A stretch of DNA of 10,590 bases from Candidatus Rifleibacteriota bacterium. GTDB taxonomy: Bacteria > UBP17 > UBA6191 > JACPRK01. Below, piece by piece: positions 339 to 10,294 of the stretch. The stretch's first letter is position 1. Each line of letters begins with the position of its first letter. The stretch lies in assembly GCA_016213865.1 (NCBI GenBank), contig JACQZL010000361.1:1-10590 (forward strand). The letters run 5' to 3'. The notes under the pieces were generated by a model. The model did no database searches. It was not told where the DNA came from and worked only from the letters and a program-made list of their open reading frames with translations. The position numbers and the translations under genes are program-made.

Positions 339-1215
339 ATGACTTGCTCGAACGAGAAGCGGCACGGAACGATTCTGATCTTCTTCATCGCCGCGATGGC
401 GATCGTGAGCGTGCTGGTTGTCTCGCTTCTTAAGACGCAGGCCGAGCAGGCCACTGGCGTCTCGGTGGCCGAAGCGAGACTCATCGCCGACACGCTGGCT
501 TTGTCCGGTATCGAGATCATGGCAACGATCGACGACAAGGGACCGTCCGCTGAACTGACGAATCGCTACCGGAGTTTTCCCGACGCGAATCAGTACGGGT
601 TCGGGCGGCTCTTCGGGTTGGATTCTTCTCCAGTGCAGAATTTACTCTACATGCCACCTTTGGAGTACCCTGCGATCCGCGGTGTCGCGATGCGCTTTCC
701 GACCGAGGATGTGCCTGGGGTCGCGTTCAACAACGACATTCGTCTGATGAACGTCTTGTGTGGGCTTCCAGTCAACGTCACGCTGACGGTTCCAGGAACG
801 ACTATCGCGGGAAACAACGGCGGTGCGGTGCTTCCCACAACTGCTTGCCGGCCCCAGCCACCCGATCCGGAACACGACGACTTTCCCGTCAATGCGGGAA
901 GTCGATACATAACCGCGCTGAACCACAACACGATTGGCTGGTACGCGCCCAAGAATTCGCCGGCCCCACTTCCCAACACGGCTAAGATCACCGGCGTCGC
1001 AGGTTCGCAGAAAGTGCCGCCGCACGTTCGTGTTTGTCCGGGACCAGATCAGCCCGCTGGGGTTGACCTCTCGCTGCTTCATCTATGCTTGGTATGCCCG
1101 TCGTAATGCGACAGACTACCTCATGACAAGCGGGCGCGTTCGCCAGATTCTGGTTTCCGGCGGGGTCGAGTACTTGGGTGACGAAATTGCCGTCAGTTAC
1201 ACTCAGTTGCGGTGA
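339..1215 (+). pseudogene. PilX/GspK-like minor pilin, frameshifted
   Basis: The ATG at 339 opens a 255-codon frame ending at 1106. It starts with a short basic leader ending in Gly10 (MTCSNEKRHG), then a hydrophobic helix at about residues 11-31 and an alpha-helical stretch to about residue 63. This is the N-terminal layout of PilX and GspK minor pilins, which sit in the pilus or pseudopilus tip and, like this protein, can lack Glu at position +5 of the mature chain. After about residue 228 the frame turns implausible. The +1-shifted frame from about 1024 reads as good protein (RTFVFVRDQISPLG, then VRQILVSGGVEYLGDEIAVS) and stops at 1213-1215. A 1-nt insertion or 2-nt deletion in the CCGCCGC tract at 1017-1023 explains this. 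Repaired, the protein would be about 290 aa. It may be a true pseudogene or a sequence error. No Shine-Dalgarno is visible at 339. Confidence 0.6.
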
Positions 1216-1239: not shown

Positions 1240-2196
1240 TCACGGCGGATAGCCTCCCCACGCCGGATTCGGCTCCGCTGGATACGTGTTGTCCCTGAGC
1301 GCCCGCGTTGCGGGCTGCTCCACGTTTCCCCAAGGGCGCGAGGTCTGCAACGCGGGGTTTGTGTCGAGGGTTGCGATCGTTGCAGGTAATGCTCCGGTGG
1401 GCAGGTAGAGCAACTCTCGTCGATTACTCGAATTGGTGTGGTTGCCCAGATACAGAGGCACTGTAACGACATCGGCTGCCTCGGGACCGAACCATACGCT
1501 GACCGTGCACTCAAGCGTGGTGGCGTTGTTGTCTGGACTGTAGAGCGTGTAGCGCCGGCCGAACTGCGACCACGGCTGGAAGGTCATCGGAATGGCCGGA
1601 GTAGAACCTCGGTCTCCGATGAATGGGTTGAACGGATCGTCGCTAGCTCCGCCAGTGGCCAGCACTGTCACAGTCAGTGCGTTGGGATTGAGACTTGGCG
1701 TGCTTGGACTTGTAGCAAGGGTGAATGCTCGACTGTACATGTACGGCGGATTCGTGTAGGGGGCGTTTGGAGGCCATACTGCTAGAGTCGTCCCTGGCGG
1801 CCTCACCACTGGCCACCACTTGGCATACCCCCCGTTCAGCATCAGCTCCACCCCCTCCTCGGCGTAGATCAGCGCGAGGTCTCGAGCGGTGTTGCGGGCG
1901 CGCTGGGCCGATTGCCGCGACAGCGACGAGGTCAGCGGCGGCACCACGACCCCCACGAGCATCACGACGATCAGGATCTCGAGCATCGTCATGCCCCGGG
2001 CCCCGGCCCCGCCCGAGCGAGGTGGCCGCAAGGTCTGAGCGCCACTCCCCAGGACTCGTGCCTGCGAGCGTGACGACGACTCACTCCAGTCATCGGGGGG
2101 TCCAGGGGTGAACTTCACCCCTGGCGGGGGTTCGGGGGCGGCGCCCCTGAGAGGGTTCCCTGTTGCCTCTTTCCCCTCTCCGCGCTGGTTCTCCAT
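1240..2196 (-). CDS. Type IV prepilin / minor pilin (PilV-like) with unusually long leader
   Basis: This is a 318-aa prepilin, exported and assembled into a type IV pilus or type II secretion pseudopilus. The diagnostic prepilin-peptidase site is at residues 66-73: ARG, cleavage, then MTMLE, with Glu at +5 of the mature chain. A hydrophobic helix follows (ILIVVMLVGVVVPPL), then an amphipathic helix (RQSAQRARNTARDLALIYAE) like the PilV group, and a beta-rich body with no recognised domain. I chose ATG 2196 because GGAGAGG (2205-2211) precedes it at good spacing; a GTG at 2205 is the alternative. The gene starts two bases after the TGA of the ligase gene, so the two are probably translationally coupled. 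The leader is about 68 residues instead of the usual 5-30 because a 49-bp double-hairpin repeat lies in frame inside it. The body has lower G+C (about 50-53% in 1381-1440 and 1681-1740) than the N-terminal part (67% in 1921-1980). Confidence 0.82.
   Translation of the reverse strand: MENQRGEGKEATGNPLRGAAPEPPPGVKFTPGPPDDWSESSSRSQARVLGSGAQTLRPPRSGGAGARGMTMLEILIVVMLVGVVVPPLTSSLSRQSAQRARNTARDLALIYAEEGVELMLNGGYAKWWPVVRPPGTTLAVWPPNAPYTNPPYMYSRAFTLATSPSTPSLNPNALTVTVLATGGASDDPFNPFIGDRGSTPAIPMTFQPWSQFGRRYTLYSPDNNATTLECTVSVWFGPEAADVVTVPLYLGNHTNSSNRRELLYLPTGALPATIATLDTNPALQTSRPWGNVEQPATRALRDNTYPAEPNPAWGGYPP
2102..2150 (+). repeat. 49-bp double-hairpin repeat, copy 1 (in prepilin leader)
   Basis: Hairpin one (2102-2124) has 10-bp arms CCAGGGGTGA and TCACCCCTGG around ACT. 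A 7-nt spacer CGGGGGT follows. Hairpin two (2132-2150) has arms TCGGGGGC and GCCCCTGA around a short loop, with one G-T wobble. The length and layout match the copies at 9276-9324 and 9131-9179 exactly. On the coding strand it is read as LRGAAPEPPPGVKFTPG, the same frame as copy 2. Confidence 0.85.
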
Positions 2197-2198
2197 CG

Positions 2199-3881
2199 TC
2201 ACCACCTCTCCAGTCGTTCCAGCTCTCGCCGGGCCAGCTCGAACCGCGGATTCACCTTCACCGCCAGCTCCAGCAAACGCCGCGCGCGGTCGAACTGCGC
2301 CGTCCGGATGTAGACCTTCGCCAGGTTATAGCACAGCGCCGGGTTGAACGGATCCAGCCGCAGCGCCTCGAGATAGCTGGTCTCGGCCCCGGGGTAGTCC
2401 TTCATCGCCACGTAGTTGCGCCCCCGCAGGAAGTGCGCCTCCGAATCGGCTGGTTTCAGCATCACCGCGTTGGCCAGGTGGAAGAGCGCCTCCTTGGGCC
2501 TATCGGTCATGTGCAGGCTCGCCCCGACCATCTTCTCGTGATCCGCCTCCAGCGCGTCCAGCGGCAACCACATCAGATATACCGCCATCGCCACCAGGAG
2601 TGGCCGCCTGACCGTCGAATCGCCCGCGGGCGCGCACCGCTCGCGCGAGGCCGCCATCCCCAGCAGGTACCAGAGCAGCATCGAGCTGGTCGTGAACCGC
2701 CCGTCCAGTCCGATCGCGGCATTCACCAGTAACGCCGCCAGCATCGCCAGGTGCAGCCGCCTCAGGTTCACCTCTTCCGGCTCCAGTTCGGGCCCCTGCT
2801 CGAGCAACGAGCGCACCGCCAGCGCCAGCAGGGCCAGCCACAACCCGAGCCCCACCAACCCCGACTCGACCGCCACGTGCAGCACCTCGGAGTGCGCGTG
2901 CAGCGCCCGCATGTTCTCGCTGGCCGAGATCTCTTGCAGGTAGGGAGGCGCGTAGACCACGAAGCAGGGCGCGAAGTTCCCCGGCCCGAATCCCAGCACC
3001 GGTCGATCGAGCACCATCCGCGAGGAACCGCTCCAGATGGCCACCCGCTCCTGGTTCGACCGGCTGCTCCGGGGGCTCATCCGGGAGAGATCCAGGTTGG
3101 TCGGCGGACGCCACCAGAGCAGCAGTCCGAACACCACGAGCATCGCCACCGCGAAGGGCAGCAGCGAACGAAAGGCCGGTACCAGCCCCCGATCCATCAG
3201 CACCAGCACGAAGAGCCCGAGCGCCGCGGCGAGCCAGCCCGCGCGCGAGAGCGAGAGCAGCAGCCCGGTCAGTATCACCAGGAAGGCCCCCAGCCCGGTG
3301 ACCCAGCGGCGCCTGCCCGCGGCCGGCCTCAGGATCCTCTGCAGCGCCAGCGGCAGCGTCACCGAGAGAAACGCCCCGAGGAAAGTCGGCTGCACGAAGG
3401 TCCCGGTCGCCCTCGTCTCCCAGGGCACCCCGAACCGCACCGTGTAGCCGCCCACGACCTGAACGATCGCCACGAGCGAGGTGGCCGCCGCCGACCCCAG
3501 CAACAGGCCCGTCAGCCAGTCGAACCGGCGAGCGTCCAGTTCGAGCGCGCGCACCAGCAGGTAGAAGAGCAACTGATAGCCCAGCACCTGCAGCTGTTCG
3601 ACCCCCACGTCCTGCACCTGCGAGAAGAGGAACGAGAAGAAGTTGGCGCAGAAATAGGCCATCGCCACCCAGTCCATCCTGCGCAGAAACCCGAAGGAAG
3701 CAGCCCGGCGGAAGGCCATCGTCAGCAACAGCAGCGCCGTGCCGGTCTGGAAGAGCGTCTCCTTGACCGTCTCGATGTTGTAGGTCCAGCCCGAAACCGC
3801 CAGCGGCACCAGCGTCAAGATCAGCGCGAGCAGCAGCAGCGGCAGGTCGAGCGGCGGGCGGCTGGAGTCGGTCACCGGCAT
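2199..3881 (-). CDS. O-antigen ligase / O-oligosaccharyltransferase family (Wzy_C) membrane protein with C-terminal TPRs
   Basis: This 560-aa inner-membrane protein has about 10-12 hydrophobic segments from residue 11 to about 440. Its Wzy_C features are SLSRAGWLAAALGL (210-223), NQERVAIW (276-283), DRPVLGFGPGNF (292-303) and HAHSEVLHVAVESGLVG (328-344). In the WaaL/PglL family the periplasmic loop His and nearby Arg residues are needed to move a lipid-linked glycan onto lipid A core or onto a protein; candidates here are R213, R279 and H328/H330. Residues ~445-560 form about three TPR units (for example AEAHFLRGRNY-type repeats with NPALCYNLAKVYIRTAQFDRA), an addition seen in some bacterial members. 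ATG 3881 is the only reasonable start because an in-frame TGA lies about 25 bases upstream; no clear Shine-Dalgarno is seen. The prepilin gene follows after two bases, which suggests a pilin-glycosylating ligase, but lipopolysaccharide or other surface polysaccharide ligation is equally possible. Confidence 0.85.
   Translation of the reverse strand: MPVTDSSRPPLDLPLLLLALILTLVPLAVSGWTYNIETVKETLFQTGTALLLLTMAFRRAASFGFLRRMDWVAMAYFCANFFSFLFSQVQDVGVEQLQVLGYQLLFYLLVRALELDARRFDWLTGLLLGSAAATSLVAIVQVVGGYTVRFGVPWETRATGTFVQPTFLGAFLSVTLPLALQRILRPAAGRRRWVTGLGAFLVILTGLLLSLSRAGWLAAALGLFVLVLMDRGLVPAFRSLLPFAVAMLVVFGLLLWWRPPTNLDLSRMSPRSSRSNQERVAIWSGSSRMVLDRPVLGFGPGNFAPCFVVYAPPYLQEISASENMRALHAHSEVLHVAVESGLVGLGLWLALLALAVRSLLEQGPELEPEEVNLRRLHLAMLAALLVNAAIGLDGRFTTSSMLLWYLLGMAASRERCAPAGDSTVRRPLLVAMAVYLMWLPLDALEADHEKMVGASLHMTDRPKEALFHLANAVMLKPADSEAHFLRGRNYVAMKDYPGAETSYLEALRLDPFNPALCYNLAKVYIRTAQFDRARRLLELAVKVNPRFELARRELERLERW
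2205..2211 (-). promoter_or_regulatory. Ribosome binding site for the prepilin
   Basis: GGAGAGG lies inside the last codons of the ligase gene, with 8 bases between it and ATG 2196. The ligase TGA (2199-2201) falls between the two, a layout typical of translational coupling. It favours ATG 2196 over GTG 2205. Confidence 0.6.
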
Positions 3882-3975: not shown

Positions 3976-4069
3976 CACAGAGATCACAGAGACACAGAGG
4001 CACAGAGGGGGAGTTGATTCCAGGAGAACCAAACACTTCTCTGTGTCTCTGTGCCTCTGTGTCTCTGTG
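3976..4069. repeat. Large inverted repeat of CACAGAG heptamers between the giant rSAM gene and the ligase gene
   Basis: The left arm has four CACAGAG heptamers (3976, 3985, 3993, 4001) at 8-9 base steps. The right arm has four CTCTGTG heptamers (4039, 4047, 4055, 4063) at exact 8-base steps. Positions 3983-4007 and 4047-4071 form a perfect 25-bp inverted repeat around a 39-base loop. Short direct runs of this type flank small non-autonomous elements in several bacterial groups, but no transposase lies nearby. In a minus-strand transcript it would form a very stable stem-loop between 4184 (end of the giant gene) and 3881 (start of the ligase). The rest of the 302-base gap (3882-4183) holds no gene I can support. 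Confidence 0.85.
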
Positions 4070-4183
4070 ATACATGTCTTCGTTTTCGGGCAAATGCCCG
4101 CGCTGGGCCCCCCTGCGTTCTCTGTGCCCGATCCCGCCAGGGATCCCAACTGCGACTTGCACCCTGTGGTAGCGCATCTGGGC

Positions 4184-7100
4184 TCACTTGAACCTGAAAG
4201 CGATCAGCTCGGCGGCGGTGAGCTGGACGGGGGGCACCCCTTCGGCGGCCCCGGCCTCGCCCTCCGCGAGCTGCGAGTTGTTTCGCGGGCCGTCGTCGGC
4301 GCCGTCGGCGACCACCTGCACCAGTTCCGCGGGGCTGAAGGGCTCGGGAAAGGCGTGATGCTCGTCGGGCAGCAACCGCTCCCGGGCCGAGGGCCCGGCG
4401 TCGGAGGCAGAGGCAGCGTCGAGCTGGTCGTAAAGCCCGCGCAACCGCGTTCGCTCGTCGGTCATCAGCGCCATCACCTTGCGGTGGGTCCGCAGGTTCA
4501 TCCCGAGGTTATCGCAGCACTTCACGCAGTTGATCGGCTCGAAGTAGGGATGGTCCTTGGTGACCGTGAGCGCGAGCGGCCGGAAGTTCTGCATCCGCGG
4601 CGAGTTCCACAGCCCTGCGAAACCGCCCGAGGCCTGGTGCAGGTTGCCGAGCGGCTTGCCGTAACCCTTGCAGCAGGGGATGGTGAATCCGTCGGTGGTG
4701 ACGCGCGAGTAGCTCCAACCGATGTAGCAGGGCATCGTGTTGACGAAGCCCGACTCGTACTCGCCCTTCTCGACCTCGCCCTGCAGCCGGCGCGAGAACG
4801 AGCCGAAGCCCAGGAAGCTCAGGAACTCGCGCTTCACGCTGTAGTTCTGCTTGTTGATGCTGCACTTGTCATGCAGCGGGCACTTGCGGCACCGCTCCTC
4901 GTCGAAGAGGAAGACGTAGCCGGTGGCGCTCTCCGGGTCGGAGTAGACGTGCGCCGAATCCAGGCCGGCCGGGCAGGTCGCCCGCGTGTGGCGGTGCTCG
5001 ATGTGGAACGTGAAGCCCTCGTACATCGACTCCTTCATCAGCCGGCTGGGAAACTCGGCGGCCTCGCGCGCGTGCTGCAGGTTGTCCAGCACCTCCAGGT
5101 GCTCGATGCCCAGCATGTTGACGTAGTCGGAACGCTCCTGCAGCCGGGCGAAGGCGGCCAGCACCTCCTCGCTCTGCTCGTGCGTGAGCCTCAGGCTGTC
5201 GGTGTAGCCCTCGATGGTGTCGACCGGGGTGAACTCGACGTACTGCGCGCCGGTGCGCAGCCCGAAGTCGATCATGTTGTCCAGGTCGTCGTAGTTGAGG
5301 TTGCTGATGACGTTGTAAATCTTGACTCTAGGTTTGACCTGCGCCCCCTTCAAGCCCTGCAGCAGCACCATCAACCGCTCCAGGCGCAGGAACGCCTCGC
5401 CGTCGGTGCCGGGGTGCGTGCGCTCGAAAGCCTCGACCGAACCGGCCCAGATGCTGCACGTCAGGTCGTCCACGCCCAGCGCCACCAGGTCCTTCACGCC
5501 CTGCTCCGTGAGCAGCGTGAAGTTGGTGATGATCGCCAGCTCCAGACCCTTCTCCTTCACGTGACGGATGACGTCCCAGATCTGCGGGTGCATGAACGGC
5601 TCGCCCGAACCCGCCAGCTGGATGCGCCGGGTGCCCATCCGCGCCGCATCGTCGATCAGCCGCCGGATCGTCTCCAGCGGAAGGAAGTGCTGCTTGAACG
5701 CGCCCGCGAACCGACGGTCGCCCATCAGGTGGCTGTGACACCAGCAACCGGCGCACGACACGTTGCAGTCGTTGGTCATGTCGATCTCGAGGATGTCGGG
5801 CCCCTTGAACGCTCGCCGGCCGTCCATGATCCCCAGCAACTCCAGCTCCGTCGGATCGTCCAGCGCCGGTGCGCCCTCCGGCAACAGCGGCTCGGGCACG
5901 AACGCAGGCCCCGACCCCGTGCGGCCCGCCACGCGCCTCTCGGTCTCGAAGCTGCCCAGGTGGTTCACCTGCTCCTTGAGCAGGTCGATCGCCTGCGCGT
6001 AACTGAGATTGCCCTTGATGATCCCCAGCACCAGCTCGTTCTGCTTGCCCTCGGTGAGATTGGTCTCCATCACCTGGATACCCTTCTCCTTGGCGACCGC
6101 CAGCAGCCGGCGGATGCGCTCCCGGCGCACCTCGATGGTGTTCTTCCCGTCCCGCGTGCGCCACAGGTAGTGGTAATCCATCGGCGGCAACACCACGTCG
6201 AACTGCTCGGCGTGGGCGTGGATCGGCGTGTCGGTGATGATCGCCAGCGCGTTGATCGACTTGATGCGGGTGACGAAGCCGGCGTTGTCCGAGTAGAAGT
6301 CGAGCGTTTGCCGGAAATCCTCCTCCTCCTCGCCGGGATAGCCGACGATGCAGAAGACGCTGCTCTCGATCCCCGCCTCGTGACAGTCGCGGATGACCCG
6401 GGCCGCATCATCTCTCGTGAAGGAGCTGCCCTTGCCCATCAGCCGGATCACCTTGTCGCTCGCGCTCTCCAGCCCGAACTTGAAGTCGTAGCAGCCCGCG
6501 GCCTTCATCTTGTCGAAGACCCTTCGCGTCATCTGCGGCGTCGGCAGGCCCTGGCACATCCACCGTACGTCGAGCTTGGCCGCCACGATCCGGTCGCAGA
6601 TCTCCTCGAGAGCCTCGATGTCGCCGTTGATGAGCTGATCGCTGATCTCGAACTCGTGGATCTCGTTCTTGACCGCGTGATAGGTCAACTCCTCGAGGAT
6701 GTGTTCGGGCGAACGGTTGCGCCACTTGCCCGTGATCGCCACGCCCTTGCAGAAGGCGCACCGGTTCACGCAGCCGCGGCTCCACTCGAGGATCAGCTTC
6801 TTCGATGGGTAGCGCGACAGGTCGAAGTCCTGGTAGTCCGGGAACGGCACCGTGTCGAGCGGCGCGATCGGCGCCCGGAAAGTCTCGCGCGGGTGCACGC
6901 CGTCCGGATAGGTCACCACGCCCGGCACGTCGCCCACCGGCCTCCCCGCCTTGATCGCCTCGATGACGTCGACCAGCGTCGCCTCGCCTTCGCCGATCAC
7001 GTAACCGTCCACCAGTTCGCCCACCTGGTCGAGGAAGATGCGCCGGTAGTCGGGCGTGAAGACCGCCGGCCCGCCCAGGATGATGCGCTTGGACTGATCG

Positions 7101-10100
7101 CGCACCTTGATGCGCCGGATCAGCTCGCAGGTCATCCGCTCCTTCGGGTCCACCACCGATAGCCCGATGACCTTGGCCGGCGACCCCGCCAGCTCGTCGG
7201 CCCACTTCTCGAGATGGTCGAGGTAGTAGCTCTTGAGCAGCGGGAAGGTGTCGCCGCTCGACCAGTAGTTCTTGTTCTCGACGTGCCAGAGCATCTTCAT
7301 GTCCTCCGGCGATTCGAGATAGAGCTGGGTGTTGAAATCGTGCACCGAGCAGCGGTAGCCCCGCCCTCGCAGATAACTCGAGAGATAGGCCAGCGCCACC
7401 GGCGGGTCGGTGTAGCCCCACACCGGACAGGTCGCCAGCACCGCGTCGTCCGGCCGTCCCACCCGCTGGTTCACCCGCTTGACGACCCGATCTTCCTGCT
7501 CGAGCAGCGTTCCCGGCGAGCCCAGCACGCGCTCCCTCGAAGGCAGCCGCACGTGCTGGTCCTCGAGCATCAGATACAGCTCCTTGAGCCGCTTGCGGCG
7601 GAACTCGCGGTTCAGATACCCGTTGTCGTGCCAGTCCCTCGCCAGGTCCTTGCCCACGCGATCGACGTTGAACCGCTTCGGCTCGCGATCGAGTTCGCAG
7701 CCCGGCAGCAACAACAGATCGGACATCGTCTCGACCTCGTCGATGTTGCCGGCGTTCTCCCACAGGAACCGCGCCAGACTCTCGAATTGCCCGTCCGGAT
7801 CGACCGGCAACCCCGCCACGAGCGTGTCGATCGACGTGACGATGCTCGACCAGTGACAGAGCCTCAACGCCTTCGCCAGGTACGGCTCCAGGCAGTACCC
7901 CTCCGGCGCCGTCGGGATGCAGAACCGCAGCTTGCGACAGCCGCCCGCCCACAACCGCCGGTATCGATCTTCCGGCTCGTCGGGCTCGGGCAGGTAGCGG
8001 GCCTCCCACGTCACCGGCAGCTCGTTGTCCTCGATCAGCGCGGCCAACCGCGTCAGCTCTTCCGGGTGGCTGTTGGCCATCGTCTGGCCCAGCACGAAGC
8101 TCGAGACACCCTTCTCGGACCACAACCTGGCCATCTCAAGGTAGATGTCGTCGGCCGAACGCGCTCTCAGGATCAGTCCATGCGGCGCGCGAGGACAGTG
8201 CACGCAGCGCTGAGAACACCCTATCCCGGCCAGCACCTCCAGCCTCGGCGACGGATACCCCGCCAGGTGGAACGGAGCCAGCTCCCCCAGCGTCAGCGCC
8301 GCCAGCGACTGCATCGGAACGAGCGGCATGAACTCGCTCGAGCCCGGGACGAACACCCCGGCCGGCCGTCGCGCCGGTCCCTCTCCGGCGTTCCCCTCGC
8401 CGCCGGTCTTCCGGGCCGCTCGGGCCAGCTCGAGCAGCGGCCGCTCGGGATCGCCCAGGATGAAGCCGTCCGGCATCGAGGCGGCCGGCAACACCTCCGC
8501 CAGCTCCTTGGCCGACCCCTGACCGAACCAGTAGATGGGCGCAGCAAAGTTCGCCTCGCGTAACTTCGAAGTGAAGTCCGCGGCCACCCGCCAGCTTGCC
8601 GGCGTCACGTGCAGCGCCAGCACCGCGGGCCTCTCACCGACCGTCTCGGCCACCGCGCGAGGGGCCAGAATCGCCCAGGGCCGCGCCACCATCGCGGCCG
8701 TCTCCGGCACGTTGTAGCCCGCATCGGCGTACTCGTCCCACCGCTCGCGCACCTGGTCCGGCGCCGCGAGGTAGCTGGCCAGGTTGAAGTCGATCGCGTG
8801 TACCCGCACCCGGTTCCCGAGCAGCCAGCTCGAGAGATACAGCAGCGAGGCCGACGGCCCGTGCGGACTGCCCGGCGGTAGCTCGGCCAGCAAGATGGCA
8901 GGCGGCTCCCCCTCGAGCGCGAGCAACTGGTGCGGCTCCCGGCTCTCGGCCGGCCGGCCGCTGAACGCGCACGGCGCCACCGGGCGCGGTTCGGGCGCGG
9001 GCAACTTCTCGCGCTTCGGCGCCACCGGCGTGCGGACCCGCTTCGAGGCCCCGACGATGCCGCGCCGAGGGCGGATTTTCACGAGAGCAACGGGGGCGGC
9101 GATGGCCGAGGCAGTGGTACCGAGTTCCTGCTGGGGGCCCTGCCCCCAGTCCCCCGCCAGAGGGTCATCGACCCTCTGGACTCCCGTTTGACCGGCGGTA
9201 GCTTCGCCCGCGACCGAACTGAGTGCTTCTTCGCAGACAGGACCGGCTTCCGATTGCGTGCCGAAATCGCCGGGTCCAGGGGGGGGCTCCCCCCCTGGCA
9301 GGGGTTCGGGGACAGCGTCCCCGACGGGGAGTTCGGTTCCAGCGTCTTCCACCTTGGCCTCCGACGGGTGGGTCTCCGCGACCTGCGGGTCCCACCTCTT
9401 CTGCGAGGGTTGGGCGGCCTCGCACTTCAGGCAAATGAGTCCCGGCCGCGGGGCCTCGTGGCCGTACACCTCGCGCAGGAACTGGCGACGCTTCTCGCCG
9501 TTCCAGATCTCGGCGAGGGTCTGTTCTCGCAGGTTCCCGATCGGCACTTCGCGGCGCCAGTCGTTGCAGCAGGCGATGACGTCGCCGCTATAGAGAACGC
9601 ACGCCATCTCCATGGCCCAGATGGAGTTGCATCCCTCGACCGCCTCGAAGCGCACCGGCGGCATCCAGCGGACGTTTCCGGCGCGCGACATCGGCTCCTC
9701 TAAGTACTCGACCCGCTCGAGCCCCAGCCCGCGCCAGTAGCGCACCGCCTCGCGGGCCTCTTCCCGGCCGAGGTGGCGCTTGTCGCGGATAATCTTGACG
9801 TTCACGTAGTCGGGGCCCTTGAGTTCGACCGCTTTGCGGCAGAAATCCTCCATGAGACTGCGGAGGCCGCCGGGGGCGTTGAAGTTCTTGAGCCCCATCA
9901 GCTTCTCGTAGGTGTCGTCGTGGAGGGCGTGCACCGAGAGACCGAGCCAGTCGAGCTTCGACTGGAGCAGGCGGTCGCCCAGCTTGCCGAGAAGCACCCC
10001 GTTGGTGAGGAGGTGCACGGTGGTGCGCGGGTTGCGGCTCTTGGCCAGGTCGATGCGTTCGATGAGTTTCGGGTCGCACAGCGGCTCGTTCATCAGGTAC

Positions 10101-10294
10101 ATCAGGATGCGGAGCACCTGGCCGTTGGCGGCGAGTTCGTCGATCACCCTCTCGAAGAGGGCGTCGTCCATCTCTCCCAGGGAGACCTCGTGCTTGATCT
10201 GGGGATGGGGGCAGAACGTGCAGGCGGCGTTGCAGGTCGTGGTGGTCTGCAACATCACGTTCAGGGGGAAGGCCGAGGTGGGAAGCTCGCTCAC
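4184..10294 (-). CDS. Giant protein with four radical SAM modules (rSAM-SPASM / B12-like-rSAM / B12-like-rSAM / rSAM-SPASM)
   Basis: The polypeptide is 2036 aa from GTG 10294, chosen because AGGAG lies 5 bases upstream and the start overlaps the preceding stop as GTGA. Module A (1-~300): CNAACTFC at 21-28 binds the SAM-cleaving 4Fe-4S cluster, and SPASM-type cysteines follow (C222, C242, C243, C288, C291). An Ala/Pro/Glu-rich linker (~300-460) carries two repeat insertions. Module B (~465-905): degenerate B12-binding-like domain, then CSQRCVHC at 693-700. Module C (~950-1445): B12-binding-like domain with GLSVVDP, LGGPAVF and GEGE (1101-1104), then CVNRCAFC at 1175-1182 and FGLES at 1273-1277. 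Module D (~1500-1930): CNVSCAGC at 1510-1517, GSGEP at 1562-1566, and SPASM cysteines C1856, C1874, C1875, C1923, C1926 and C1927. B and C align along their whole length and look like a tandem duplication. Such enzymes make radical-based modifications of peptides, lipids or small molecules; the substrate is unknown. The tail after ~1930 is unstructured. Confidence 0.88.
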   Translation of the reverse strand: MSELPTSAFPLNVMLQTTTTCNAACTFCPHPQIKHEVSLGEMDDALFERVIDELAANGQVLRILMYLMNEPLCDPKLIERIDLAKSRNPRTTVHLLTNGVLLGKLGDRLLQSKLDWLGLSVHALHDDTYEKLMGLKNFNAPGGLRSLMEDFCRKAVELKGPDYVNVKIIRDKRHLGREEAREAVRYWRGLGLERVEYLEEPMSRAGNVRWMPPVRFEAVEGCNSIWAMEMACVLYSGDVIACCNDWRREVPIGNLREQTLAEIWNGEKRRQFLREVYGHEAPRPGLICLKCEAAQPSQKRWDPQVAETHPSEAKVEDAGTELPVGDAVPEPLPGGEPPPGPGDFGTQSEAGPVCEEALSSVAGEATAGQTGVQRVDDPLAGDWGQGPQQELGTTASAIAAPVALVKIRPRRGIVGASKRVRTPVAPKREKLPAPEPRPVAPCAFSGRPAESREPHQLLALEGEPPAILLAELPPGSPHGPSASLLYLSSWLLGNRVRVHAIDFNLASYLAAPDQVRERWDEYADAGYNVPETAAMVARPWAILAPRAVAETVGERPAVLALHVTPASWRVAADFTSKLREANFAAPIYWFGQGSAKELAEVLPAASMPDGFILGDPERPLLELARAARKTGGEGNAGEGPARRPAGVFVPGSSEFMPLVPMQSLAALTLGELAPFHLAGYPSPRLEVLAGIGCSQRCVHCPRAPHGLILRARSADDIYLEMARLWSEKGVSSFVLGQTMANSHPEELTRLAALIEDNELPVTWEARYLPEPDEPEDRYRRLWAGGCRKLRFCIPTAPEGYCLEPYLAKALRLCHWSSIVTSIDTLVAGLPVDPDGQFESLARFLWENAGNIDEVETMSDLLLLPGCELDREPKRFNVDRVGKDLARDWHDNGYLNREFRRKRLKELYLMLEDQHVRLPSRERVLGSPGTLLEQEDRVVKRVNQRVGRPDDAVLATCPVWGYTDPPVALAYLSSYLRGRGYRCSVHDFNTQLYLESPEDMKMLWHVENKNYWSSGDTFPLLKSYYLDHLEKWADELAGSPAKVIGLSVVDPKERMTCELIRRIKVRDQSKRIILGGPAVFTPDYRRIFLDQVGELVDGYVIGEGEATLVDVIEAIKAGRPVGDVPGVVTYPDGVHPRETFRAPIAPLDTVPFPDYQDFDLSRYPSKKLILEWSRGCVNRCAFCKGVAITGKWRNRSPEHILEELTYHAVKNEIHEFEISDQLINGDIEALEEICDRIVAAKLDVRWMCQGLPTPQMTRRVFDKMKAAGCYDFKFGLESASDKVIRLMGKGSSFTRDDAARVIRDCHEAGIESSVFCIVGYPGEEEEDFRQTLDFYSDNAGFVTRIKSINALAIITDTPIHAHAEQFDVVLPPMDYHYLWRTRDGKNTIEVRRERIRRLLAVAKEKGIQVMETNLTEGKQNELVLGIIKGNLSYAQAIDLLKEQVNHLGSFETERRVAGRTGSGPAFVPEPLLPEGAPALDDPTELELLGIMDGRRAFKGPDILEIDMTNDCNVSCAGCWCHSHLMGDRRFAGAFKQHFLPLETIRRLIDDAARMGTRRIQLAGSGEPFMHPQIWDVIRHVKEKGLELAIITNFTLLTEQGVKDLVALGVDDLTCSIWAGSVEAFERTHPGTDGEAFLRLERLMVLLQGLKGAQVKPRVKIYNVISNLNYDDLDNMIDFGLRTGAQYVEFTPVDTIEGYTDSLRLTHEQSEEVLAAFARLQERSDYVNMLGIEHLEVLDNLQHAREAAEFPSRLMKESMYEGFTFHIEHRHTRATCPAGLDSAHVYSDPESATGYVFLFDEERCRKCPLHDKCSINKQNYSVKREFLSFLGFGSFSRRLQGEVEKGEYESGFVNTMPCYIGWSYSRVTTDGFTIPCCKGYGKPLGNLHQASGGFAGLWNSPRMQNFRPLALTVTKDHPYFEPINCVKCCDNLGMNLRTHRKVMALMTDERTRLRGLYDQLDAASASDAGPSARERLLPDEHHAFPEPFSPAELVQVVADGADDGPRNNSQLAEGEAGAAEGVPPVQLTAAELIAFRFK
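9131..9179 (-). repeat. 49-bp double-hairpin repeat, copy 3 (inverted, in rSAM linker)
   Basis: In opposite orientation to the other two copies. Hairpin one (9157-9179) has arms CCAGAGGGTC and GACCCTCTGG around a 3-nt loop. The spacer at 9150-9156 is TCCCCCG. Hairpin two (9131-9149) has arms CTGGGGGC and GCCCCCAG around CCT. It encodes residues 372-388 of the giant protein (VQRVDDPLAGDWGQGPQ). Confidence 0.87.
9276..9324 (+). repeat. 49-bp double-hairpin repeat, copy 2 (in rSAM linker)
   Basis: Hairpin one (9276-9298) has arms CCAGGGGGGG and CCCCCCCTGG around GCT. The spacer is CAGGGGT. Hairpin two (9306-9324) has arms TCGGGGAC and GTCCCCGA around AGC, all perfectly paired. It encodes residues 324-340 of the giant protein (VGDAVPEPLPGGEPPPG), the same frame as the prepilin copy. 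It contains a run of 8 G (9279-9286) and a run of 7 C (9289-9295). Confidence 0.87.

Follow-up and report, generated by a model that had tools for sequence, protein, structure and literature searches.

A four-module radical SAM protein from Candidatus Rifleibacteriota belongs to a combinatorial family with a putative link to surface glycans

Radical S-adenosylmethionine (SAM) enzymes normally have a single module, and the best-known fusion, the FO synthase FbiC, has two and carries neither cobalamin (B12) nor SPASM parts. FbiC is described as a fusion of CofG and CofH, which are encoded by separate genes in archaea (PMC11917521). In this work, we analyzed a 10,590-nucleotide stretch of a Candidatus Rifleibacteriota genome (assembly GCA_016213865.1, contig JACQZL010000361.1; hereafter the window) and found an open reading frame (ORF) that encodes four radical SAM modules in one chain (4184..10294, minus strand). 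This ORF resembles FbiC in being a radical SAM fusion with separate-gene counterparts in archaea, but FbiC has two modules and functions in cofactor biosynthesis. An initial annotation of the window knew of no described family with such an architecture; likewise, our literature search, with subscription papers and preprints outside its scope, gave no description of a multi-module radical SAM family among the titles and abstracts listed. No such protein was noticed in the parts consulted of two studies from the Cariaco Basin and the Black Sea (PMC9902471; PMC11868695).

The reading frame and its closest relatives

The minus-strand frame is free of stops from 10489 to 4184. Translation from the GTG at 10294, which has the ribosome-site-like sequence GGAGAAGGAG immediately 5′ of it, gives 2,036 amino acids without a stop; thus, the continuous 2036-codon frame described initially is real. 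The four CxxxCxxC motifs claimed for it were found exactly at residues 21, 693, 1175, and 1510. In Pfam searches, the expected domains were recovered in part: PF04055 matched four stretches (whole-protein E 6.5e-57; 192.7 bits versus a cut-off of 29.5) and PF13186 (SPASM) two, but the B12-binding PF02310 matched only one (residues 1029-1110), with 25 bits versus a curated cut-off of 32.1. The module set is S1 (BtrN-like, Twitch), B1 and B2 (cobalamin type), and S2 (SPASM type). Because S1 has a radical cluster and one Twitch set, S2 has a radical cluster and two auxiliary sets, and B1 and B2 have one cluster each, up to seven [4Fe-4S] clusters are predicted per chain, together with up to two cobalamins. 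The four radical cluster sites are accompanied by only three probable canonical SAM sites. All coordinates of modules, motifs, and linkers given below are on the minus strand.

A protein search returned 70 hits, including the window itself. The initial annotation had called for homologs with the same module order, and three were found: P0003 (89% identity), P0004 (65%; Candidatus Wallbacteria), and P0005 (58%; 97% query coverage) share all four modules and their order, and a fourth relative (P0006) is cut by its contig end. Two of these four relatives bear the name Wallbacteria, which would probably place the window near that group. Compared with the Wallbacteria locus L002, the identity is 70% for S1, 57% for B1, 81% for B2, and 83% for S2. 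Within these modules, differences at third codon positions outnumber those at first positions 1.6-2.6-fold and those at second positions 2.0-3.3-fold. The linkers are 27-31% identical to those of L002 and vary in length, yet the frame is kept. The Pro/Ala/Glu-rich S1-B1 linker (8930..9409) is fast-evolving and open in the relatives seen, with 27% identity to L002 (residues 293-439), and the B2-S2 linker (5849..5944) has 31%.

Separate-gene versions exist in other organisms, as would be expected if an assembly error had joined ordinary separate genes in the window. However, the same fusion is kept by the three relatives from other assemblies, and their divergent linkers contain no stop or frameshift. 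For these reasons an assembly accident is extremely improbable, and the fusion is real. Given the shared module order and the excess of changes at third codon positions, chance cannot produce such an ORF.

Two to three Cys-Cys motifs (CCSSG-like) occur in the S1-B1 linker of P0004 (residues 327-355), P0005 (334-371), and P0006 (332-359), and are absent from this linker in the window and P0003. These motifs are a possible metal or cluster site.

Module identities and the divergence of B1

Module S1 (residues 1-295; 9410..10294) matches PF04055 and PF13186, and its CxxxCxxC lies at residues 21-28 (10211..10234). Its best solved relative is BtrN (2-deoxy-scyllo-inosamine dehydrogenase, a radical SAM/Twitch enzyme; PDB 4m7s and 4m7t; E 8.5e-14 for 4m7s). 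The two align in two stretches, which take in a portion of the radical SAM core as well as the Twitch part, where all four auxiliary cysteines coincide, but BtrN is a single module of ∼250 amino acids, whereas S1 is joined to three more radical SAM modules. The reaction of BtrN is described as that of an aminocyclitol dehydrogenase (PMC9012708). SPASM-type cysteine sets had been noted after the first and last CxxxCxxC motifs. This holds for S2, which has two auxiliary sets, but the pattern in S1 is that of a Twitch domain with one cluster, not of a SPASM domain with two, since S1 has four auxiliary positions (C222, C242/243, C288, and C291; 9422..9631) that are conserved in 55 of 55 S1 modules and align with those of BtrN.

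Module S2 (residues 1483-1950; 4445..5848) was defined by Pfam, by alignment A5 (the window plus 11 of 28 S2 stretches), and by a structure model with a predicted local distance difference test (pLDDT) score of 83.3. Its CxxxCxxC lies at residues 1510-1517 (5744..5767). Both auxiliary sets, namely C1774, C1802, C1805, and C1811 (4862..4975) and C1856, C1874/1875, C1923, and C1927 (4514..4729), are invariant in 12 of 12 rows. In both model and cysteine sets, S2 resembles the SPASM/Twitch enzymes SuiB, SkfB, and MoaA and the radical SAM enzymes BlsE and DesII, with GDGT-MAS also among the structure matches; however, TM-scores to the five former enzymes are only 0.35-0.6. S2 differs from them in an inserted C-x27-CxxCx5C set between the core and the Twitch part and, compared with this set of enzymes, no precursor-peptide ORF was found to be shared between distant loci.

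Module B2 (residues 961-1450; 5945..7414) corresponds to Bc, the most conserved cobalamin-type radical SAM module of the family, which was aligned as A2 (the window plus 21 of 24 Bc stretches). It matches PF04055, contains the single sub-cut-off PF02310 stretch, and resembles TsrM, AprD4, OxsB, and CysS by sequence. Its CxxxCxxC lies at residues 1175-1182 (6749..6772), the GxES motif is present as GLES, and the conserved Bc motifs are LWHVENKN, SVVDPKER, and EWSRGC.

Module B1 (residues 456-960; 7415..8929) is divergent, and its B12-like fold is supported by a structure model (pLDDT 86.9) rather than by Pfam. The top PDB matches of this model are TsrM, AprD4, CysS, and OxsB, with TM-scores of ∼0.5-0.6, and the likeness to these enzymes and to TokK runs from the B12 domain to the radical core. 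However, B1 shares only 12-16% identity with these five enzymes and lacks GxES, and the tandem of two cobalamin-type modules in one chain sets the ORF apart from all of them. The CxxxCxxC of B1 (residues 693-700; 8195..8218) is kept throughout its clade (the window and P0003-P0006), whereas the G-x-E/D-S motif is gone in five of the five members, the site reading CIPTAPEG in the window (7898..7921). Among the other B modules, 160 of 162 keep the motif (Fisher p 2e-8, kinship ignored). This audit covered 167 B modules >250 amino acids from 68 proteins (P0002, P0070, and P0071 were left out), and because of this length threshold the short middle B of P0055-type proteins fell outside it. In those proteins, the radical half of the middle B is missing and little remains beyond a weak Rossmann match, and the middle B in L008 has no CxxxCxxC.

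The GxES motif contacts SAM, and TsrM reportedly uses its cluster without the usual radical cleavage. Loss of GxES would therefore abolish SAM binding in B1. This divergent cobalamin/[4Fe-4S] module probably has no canonical SAM site and would serve as a scaffold, as an electron relay, or for TsrM-like chemistry. The initial suggestion of four reactions becomes doubtful because GxES is lost in all five clade members, and it is weakened further by the decayed middle B modules elsewhere in the family. The same losses would fit a reading in which only one or two modules catalyze and the rest form a relay or scaffold, the chain being an electron-transfer device and not an assembly line, and intermolecular electron transfer has been reported for PapB (PMC10470005, consulted in part). 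Against this, the cysteines of S1, B2, and S2 are retained, and these modules share 70-83% identity with L002 and have the most changes at third codon positions, as active sites would. We consider such a device rather unlikely, and it would be compatible with a glycan substrate.

Combinatorial family, split versions, and origin

Among 68 proteins (P0001 and P0003-P0069), 17 have five CxxxCxxC motifs and 18 have four. Their architectures include S1-B-Bc-S2, S1-B-B-B-B (∼2,300 amino acids), B-B-Bc-S2, S1-B-B-B, S1-B-Bc, B-Bc-S2, and S2-S2-S2; the family is combinatorial, with three to five module positions per chain. When contigs were scanned (one genome per species), P0001 as the sole query gave no match, and alignment A1 as the query found 28 loci. 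The titles of these records name Wallbacteria, Deltaproteobacteria, Cloacimonadota, UBP17, Calescamantes, Omnitrophota/Saelkia, Caldisericota, Woesearchaeota, Nanoarchaeota, and simply "bacterium". The distribution of Bc looks sparse: it was found in at least 5 of 39 genomes of the phylum that includes the L002 genome (E up to 1e-130; Cloacimonadota/UBP17 records in four cases), at least 10 of 384 for that of L012 (E up to 1e-150), and at least 3 of 279 for that of L007 (E up to 1e-150). These tallies are lower bounds because at most 40, 4, and 5 candidates per genome, respectively, were scored.

Whether the modules also exist as separate adjacent genes had been raised initially, and such versions were found in five archaeal loci and one deltaproteobacterial metagenome-assembled genome (MAG), often with the B modules still fused. 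The archaeal arrangements are S1, B-Bc, S2, and S2 as neighboring genes (L011); an S1 gene followed by B-Bc (L013); B, B-Bc, S2, and S2 (L014); S1, then B-B-Bc-S2 in a single frame, then S2-type genes (L007); and B-B-B, Bc, S2, and S2 (L072, from a genome of the same phylum group as L007). Two deltaproteobacterial MAGs of the same label show both states: S1-B-B-B-B forms one 2,504-amino-acid frame in L067, and the modules follow the same order in separate frames in L068, where the frame of the third B was missed in ORF calling and its position was taken from another analysis.

Long runs of S2-S2-S2 and B modules occur in the Omnitrophota loci L017, L024, L026, and L027. L017 packs eleven radical SAM modules into ∼19 kb, and L027 has ten in ∼15 kb.

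The order S1-B1-B2-S2 had been read as a mirror arising from two duplicated two-gene units. Module comparisons and a tree of B modules (those >380 amino acids, from 32 of the 68 proteins) do not support this duplication of an S-B unit, which we reject. B1 and B2 share 21% identity, the sole match between S1 and S2 at E <0.01 is a 65-residue Twitch tail (E 8e-4), and positional classes of B modules fall into their own clades. In this tree, the window B1 has a very long branch (1.98) and groups with the B that precedes Bc in B-Bc-S2 proteins (e.g., P0011 of Candidatus Lernaella). As far as sequence comparison can tell, the module order is an assembled set and not two copies of a pair, with S1/S2 and B1/B2 as distant paralogs.

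A viral origin was also considered and set aside, as no confirmed relative was found among viral contigs; four phage records have distant B12-radical SAM matches. The plasmid matches of B2 (160 records) look like generic B12-radical SAM proteins among the 20 listed.

Gene neighborhood and putative function

Genes near these modules often belong to glycan pathways. Glycosyltransferase group 1 was found in 23 of 126 neighbor ORFs (drawn from 22 of 28 loci) compared with at most 1 of 125 controls (Fisher p 6e-7), and group 2 in 12 of the 126. Further families among these neighbors are ABC_tran (8), ABC2_membrane (7), PF00953 (WecA-like; 3), and Wzy_C (2). The neighbor set comprised 126 plus-strand ORFs out of 202 neighbor ORFs of at least 150 amino acids, with ORFs containing a radical SAM module not counted and with minus-strand ORFs, L022, L028, L004:16000-18396, L006:7321-9711, and L023:14888-18040 left out. 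The controls were 125 of 193 ORFs on both strands (126 drawn at random, with one long ORF then removed) from contigs C7, C5, or C2 of 20 of the same genomes, picked by number and not at random. In six loci chosen later (48 of 60 ORFs), group 1 was found in 7 of 48 (p 6e-4) and group 2 in 4 of 48, and these loci also have asparagine-synthase-like, carbamoyltransferase, epimerase, and GDSL/MBOAT genes, which fit glycan decoration. L073, fetched for the single B genes of a Wallbacteria genome, was left out of this set; overlapping frames were called there and no module was found.

Among individual loci, L027 has genes for an epimerase, a carbamoyltransferase, a deacetylase, and ABC2_membrane, and L008 has a Wzt_C ATPase. 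Fusion proteins of a glycosyltransferase (group 1/family 4) with a radical SAM/SPASM part were found in two differently named bacteria (L002:8669-11191 and L008:8852-11296) and are a direct link of radical SAM modules to glycan assembly. One sequence family lies beside the modules in six bacterial and archaeal loci; of the five tested by Pfam, it is a glycosyltransferase in L002, L007, and L011, weakly so in L004, and not in L008.

Sugars or sugar nucleosides are the substrates of AprD4, BlsE, and DesII, all three of which are among the enzymes matched by the structure models of B1 and S2. In addition, S1 alone matched 11 plasmid records with 23-26% identity. When one record per organism was inspected (7 of 11, leaving out two Lawsonia, a second Brachyspira, and unannotated Vibrio records), S1-like genes were found among sugar or lipopolysaccharide genes in five of seven organisms (Brachyspira, Smac51, Solidesulfovibrio, Lawsonia, and Roseibium) and not in Azospirillum and Calothrix. 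These neighbors include rfbC/rfbF, perosamine synthetase, DegT-type aminotransferases, and rfaD/rfaE2. The Solidesulfovibrio gene is carried by plasmid pDCAR1 of Solidesulfovibrio carbinolicus DSM 3852. A BtrN-like dehydrogenase beside a DegT aminotransferase recalls butirosin biosynthesis, in which BtrS is the partner of BtrN. Plasmid pBHWA1 of Brachyspira hyodysenteriae (NC_012226.1, 7270-20028; L074) has seven radical SAM/SPASM genes amid glycosyltransferases and rhamnose/lipooligosaccharide genes, and one of the seven is S1-like (23.5% identity). Unlike the window ORF, these genes are separate and of ordinary length, with no multi-module fusion in the stretch 1-25000. The rfb/rhamnan genes of a Brachyspira plasmid have been described (PMC4267127).

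In the window itself, the gene downstream of the ORF and in the same direction (2199..3881, minus strand) encodes an O-antigen ligase (Wzy_C) protein with a tetratricopeptide repeat (TPR) tail (PF04932 E 5.3e-19), followed by a prepilin-like gene (1240..2205, minus strand) whose N-terminus looks type IV pilin-like by eye and which has no Pfam hit. L002 shares the order radical SAM, Wzy_C/TPR (19529-21841), and prepilin-type genes (N_methyl; 22925-23929 and 24872-25774). By eye, pilin-like genes are found beside the ligase in the window at 339-1106 (plus strand) as well as at 1240-2205 (minus strand). The gap between the ORF and the ligase gene contains a perfect 25-nucleotide inverted repeat with a 39-nucleotide loop, ATCACAGAGACACAGAGGCACAGAG (3983-4071), which could be a dispersed repeat or a regulatory hairpin.

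Taken together, the ORF combines known module types and belongs to an apparently undescribed combinatorial multi-module family, whose most likely role is radical chemistry on surface glycans. The more specific proposal, that the fused enzyme remodels a surface glycan while it is lipid-linked, ahead of export or ligation, has in our view about an even chance of being correct, and several observations weigh against it. The glycan neighborhood is present in many but not all loci: 17 of 28 have a glycosyltransferase-like neighbor and 11 have none (counted by shared clusters; some contigs are short, and unclustered genes would be missed). Scans of individual proteins in two Cloacimonadota loci (L005 and L023) and two loci of deltaproteobacterial MAGs (L022 and L009) found no glycan gene; the neighbors there are M42 peptidase, DrrA-type ABC transporter, chemotaxis, and histidine-kinase proteins, a transposase, and RNase E/G; in L005 and L023, B-Bc-S2 genes sit among peptidase, DrrA-type transporter, and signaling genes. 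Because of these scans, our confidence was lowered from slightly better than even. The p-values given above overstate the case, because the test ORFs are co-directional, the controls are from both strands, and the loci are related. Having Wzy_C is of little diagnostic value by itself, because 9 of 14 control genomes contain it, compared with 21 of 26 of the genomes with these loci, and the window shows only the O-antigen ligase and no glycosyltransferase. All NCBIfam matches listed (25 of 89) score under the cut-offs of their models, including TIGR04317 (tungsten-cofactor radical SAM maturase; 149.1 bits versus 380), and enzymes of peptide, lipid, and cofactor metabolism (SuiB, MoaA, TsrM, and GDGT-MAS) are likewise among the best structure matches.

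Some of these matches point to a protein or peptide substrate, either of the type of ribosomally synthesized and post-translationally modified peptides (RiPPs) or the nearby pilins, with the next-door ligase glycosylating pilin. Some Wzy_C proteins are pilin glycosyltransferases, so pilin might be the acceptor of the glycan. The S2 model matches SuiB and SkfB, B2 scores 131.1 bits with TIGR03975 (a RiPP C-methyltransferase subfamily), and prepilin-type genes adjoin the ligase in the window and L002. However, the cut-off of TIGR03975 is 281.85 bits, and N_methyl is not among the 25 commonest of 101 neighbor families. A comparison of 159 small intergenic ORFs (25-89 amino acids) found none common to distant loci, only those of Cloacimonadota/UBP17 matching each other, although unshared, overlapping, or very short precursors would escape it; this comparison thus gave a RiPP precursor no support. 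Overall, we regard peptide or pilin modification as unlikely. Quite unlikely is a role in building or editing a membrane lipid or polyprenyl carrier, as by Tes, GrsA, and ladderane-type radical SAM enzymes. B2 does score 107.6 bits with TIGR04072 (lipid biosynthesis B12/radical SAM, ladderane type), GDGT-MAS is among the S2 matches, and GrsA homologs are given for 7 of 42 Cloacimonadota MAGs in the part consulted of one study (PMC11868695). Nonetheless, the TIGR04072 cut-off is 360 bits, and the 25 commonest neighbor families listed include none for fatty acids or isoprenoids.

Sulfatase maturation was another candidate that we rejected. The maturation motif of sulfatases is [CS]xPxR, and the two sulfatase-like neighbors tested, in L002 and L071, do not contain it.

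For the glycan reading, the substrate, the reactions, the order of action, and the inactivity of B1 are inferred. The cytosolic ORF product would act on a sugar unit or a lipid-linked oligosaccharide or glycan. S1 would oxidize a carbinol by hydrogen-atom abstraction, as BtrN does, and pass the electron to the Twitch cluster. B2 would perform cobalamin-dependent radical chemistry, either C-methylation or an AprD4-like dehydration, and S2 would add another oxidation or rearrangement of the SPASM type. Export of the product, for which relatives have Wzm/Wzt-like genes, would be followed by its attachment through a ligase of the O-antigen type, such as the one from the next-door gene. The fusion would hold the modules at fixed stoichiometry on one substrate, on which their reactions may be channeled. 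In its boldest form, this proposal describes an undescribed family of radical-SAM megasynthases, whose chains have three to five module positions and which in some Omnitrophota reaches ten or eleven modules per locus. The family would be a radical assembly line for lipid-linked glycans on the surface of bacteria and DPANN archaea that yields sugars with edited carbon skeletons, the module order being the reaction order and middle modules decaying to non-catalytic relay parts. We offer this version tentatively, as it is possible but doubtful.

The biological meaning lies in a family of chains with three to five module positions and separate-gene counterparts that is tied by neighborhood, in many loci, to surface sugars. 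Its fused and split versions provide a natural experiment on how modules are ordered, how they share electrons, and how catalytic ones are lost. If the glycan link is true, uncultured bacteria and DPANN archaea make surface sugars by a radical chemistry that has not yet been looked for, and the ORF of this Candidatus Rifleibacteriota bacterium may well encode an enzyme that changes the carbon skeleton of sugars on the cell surface.

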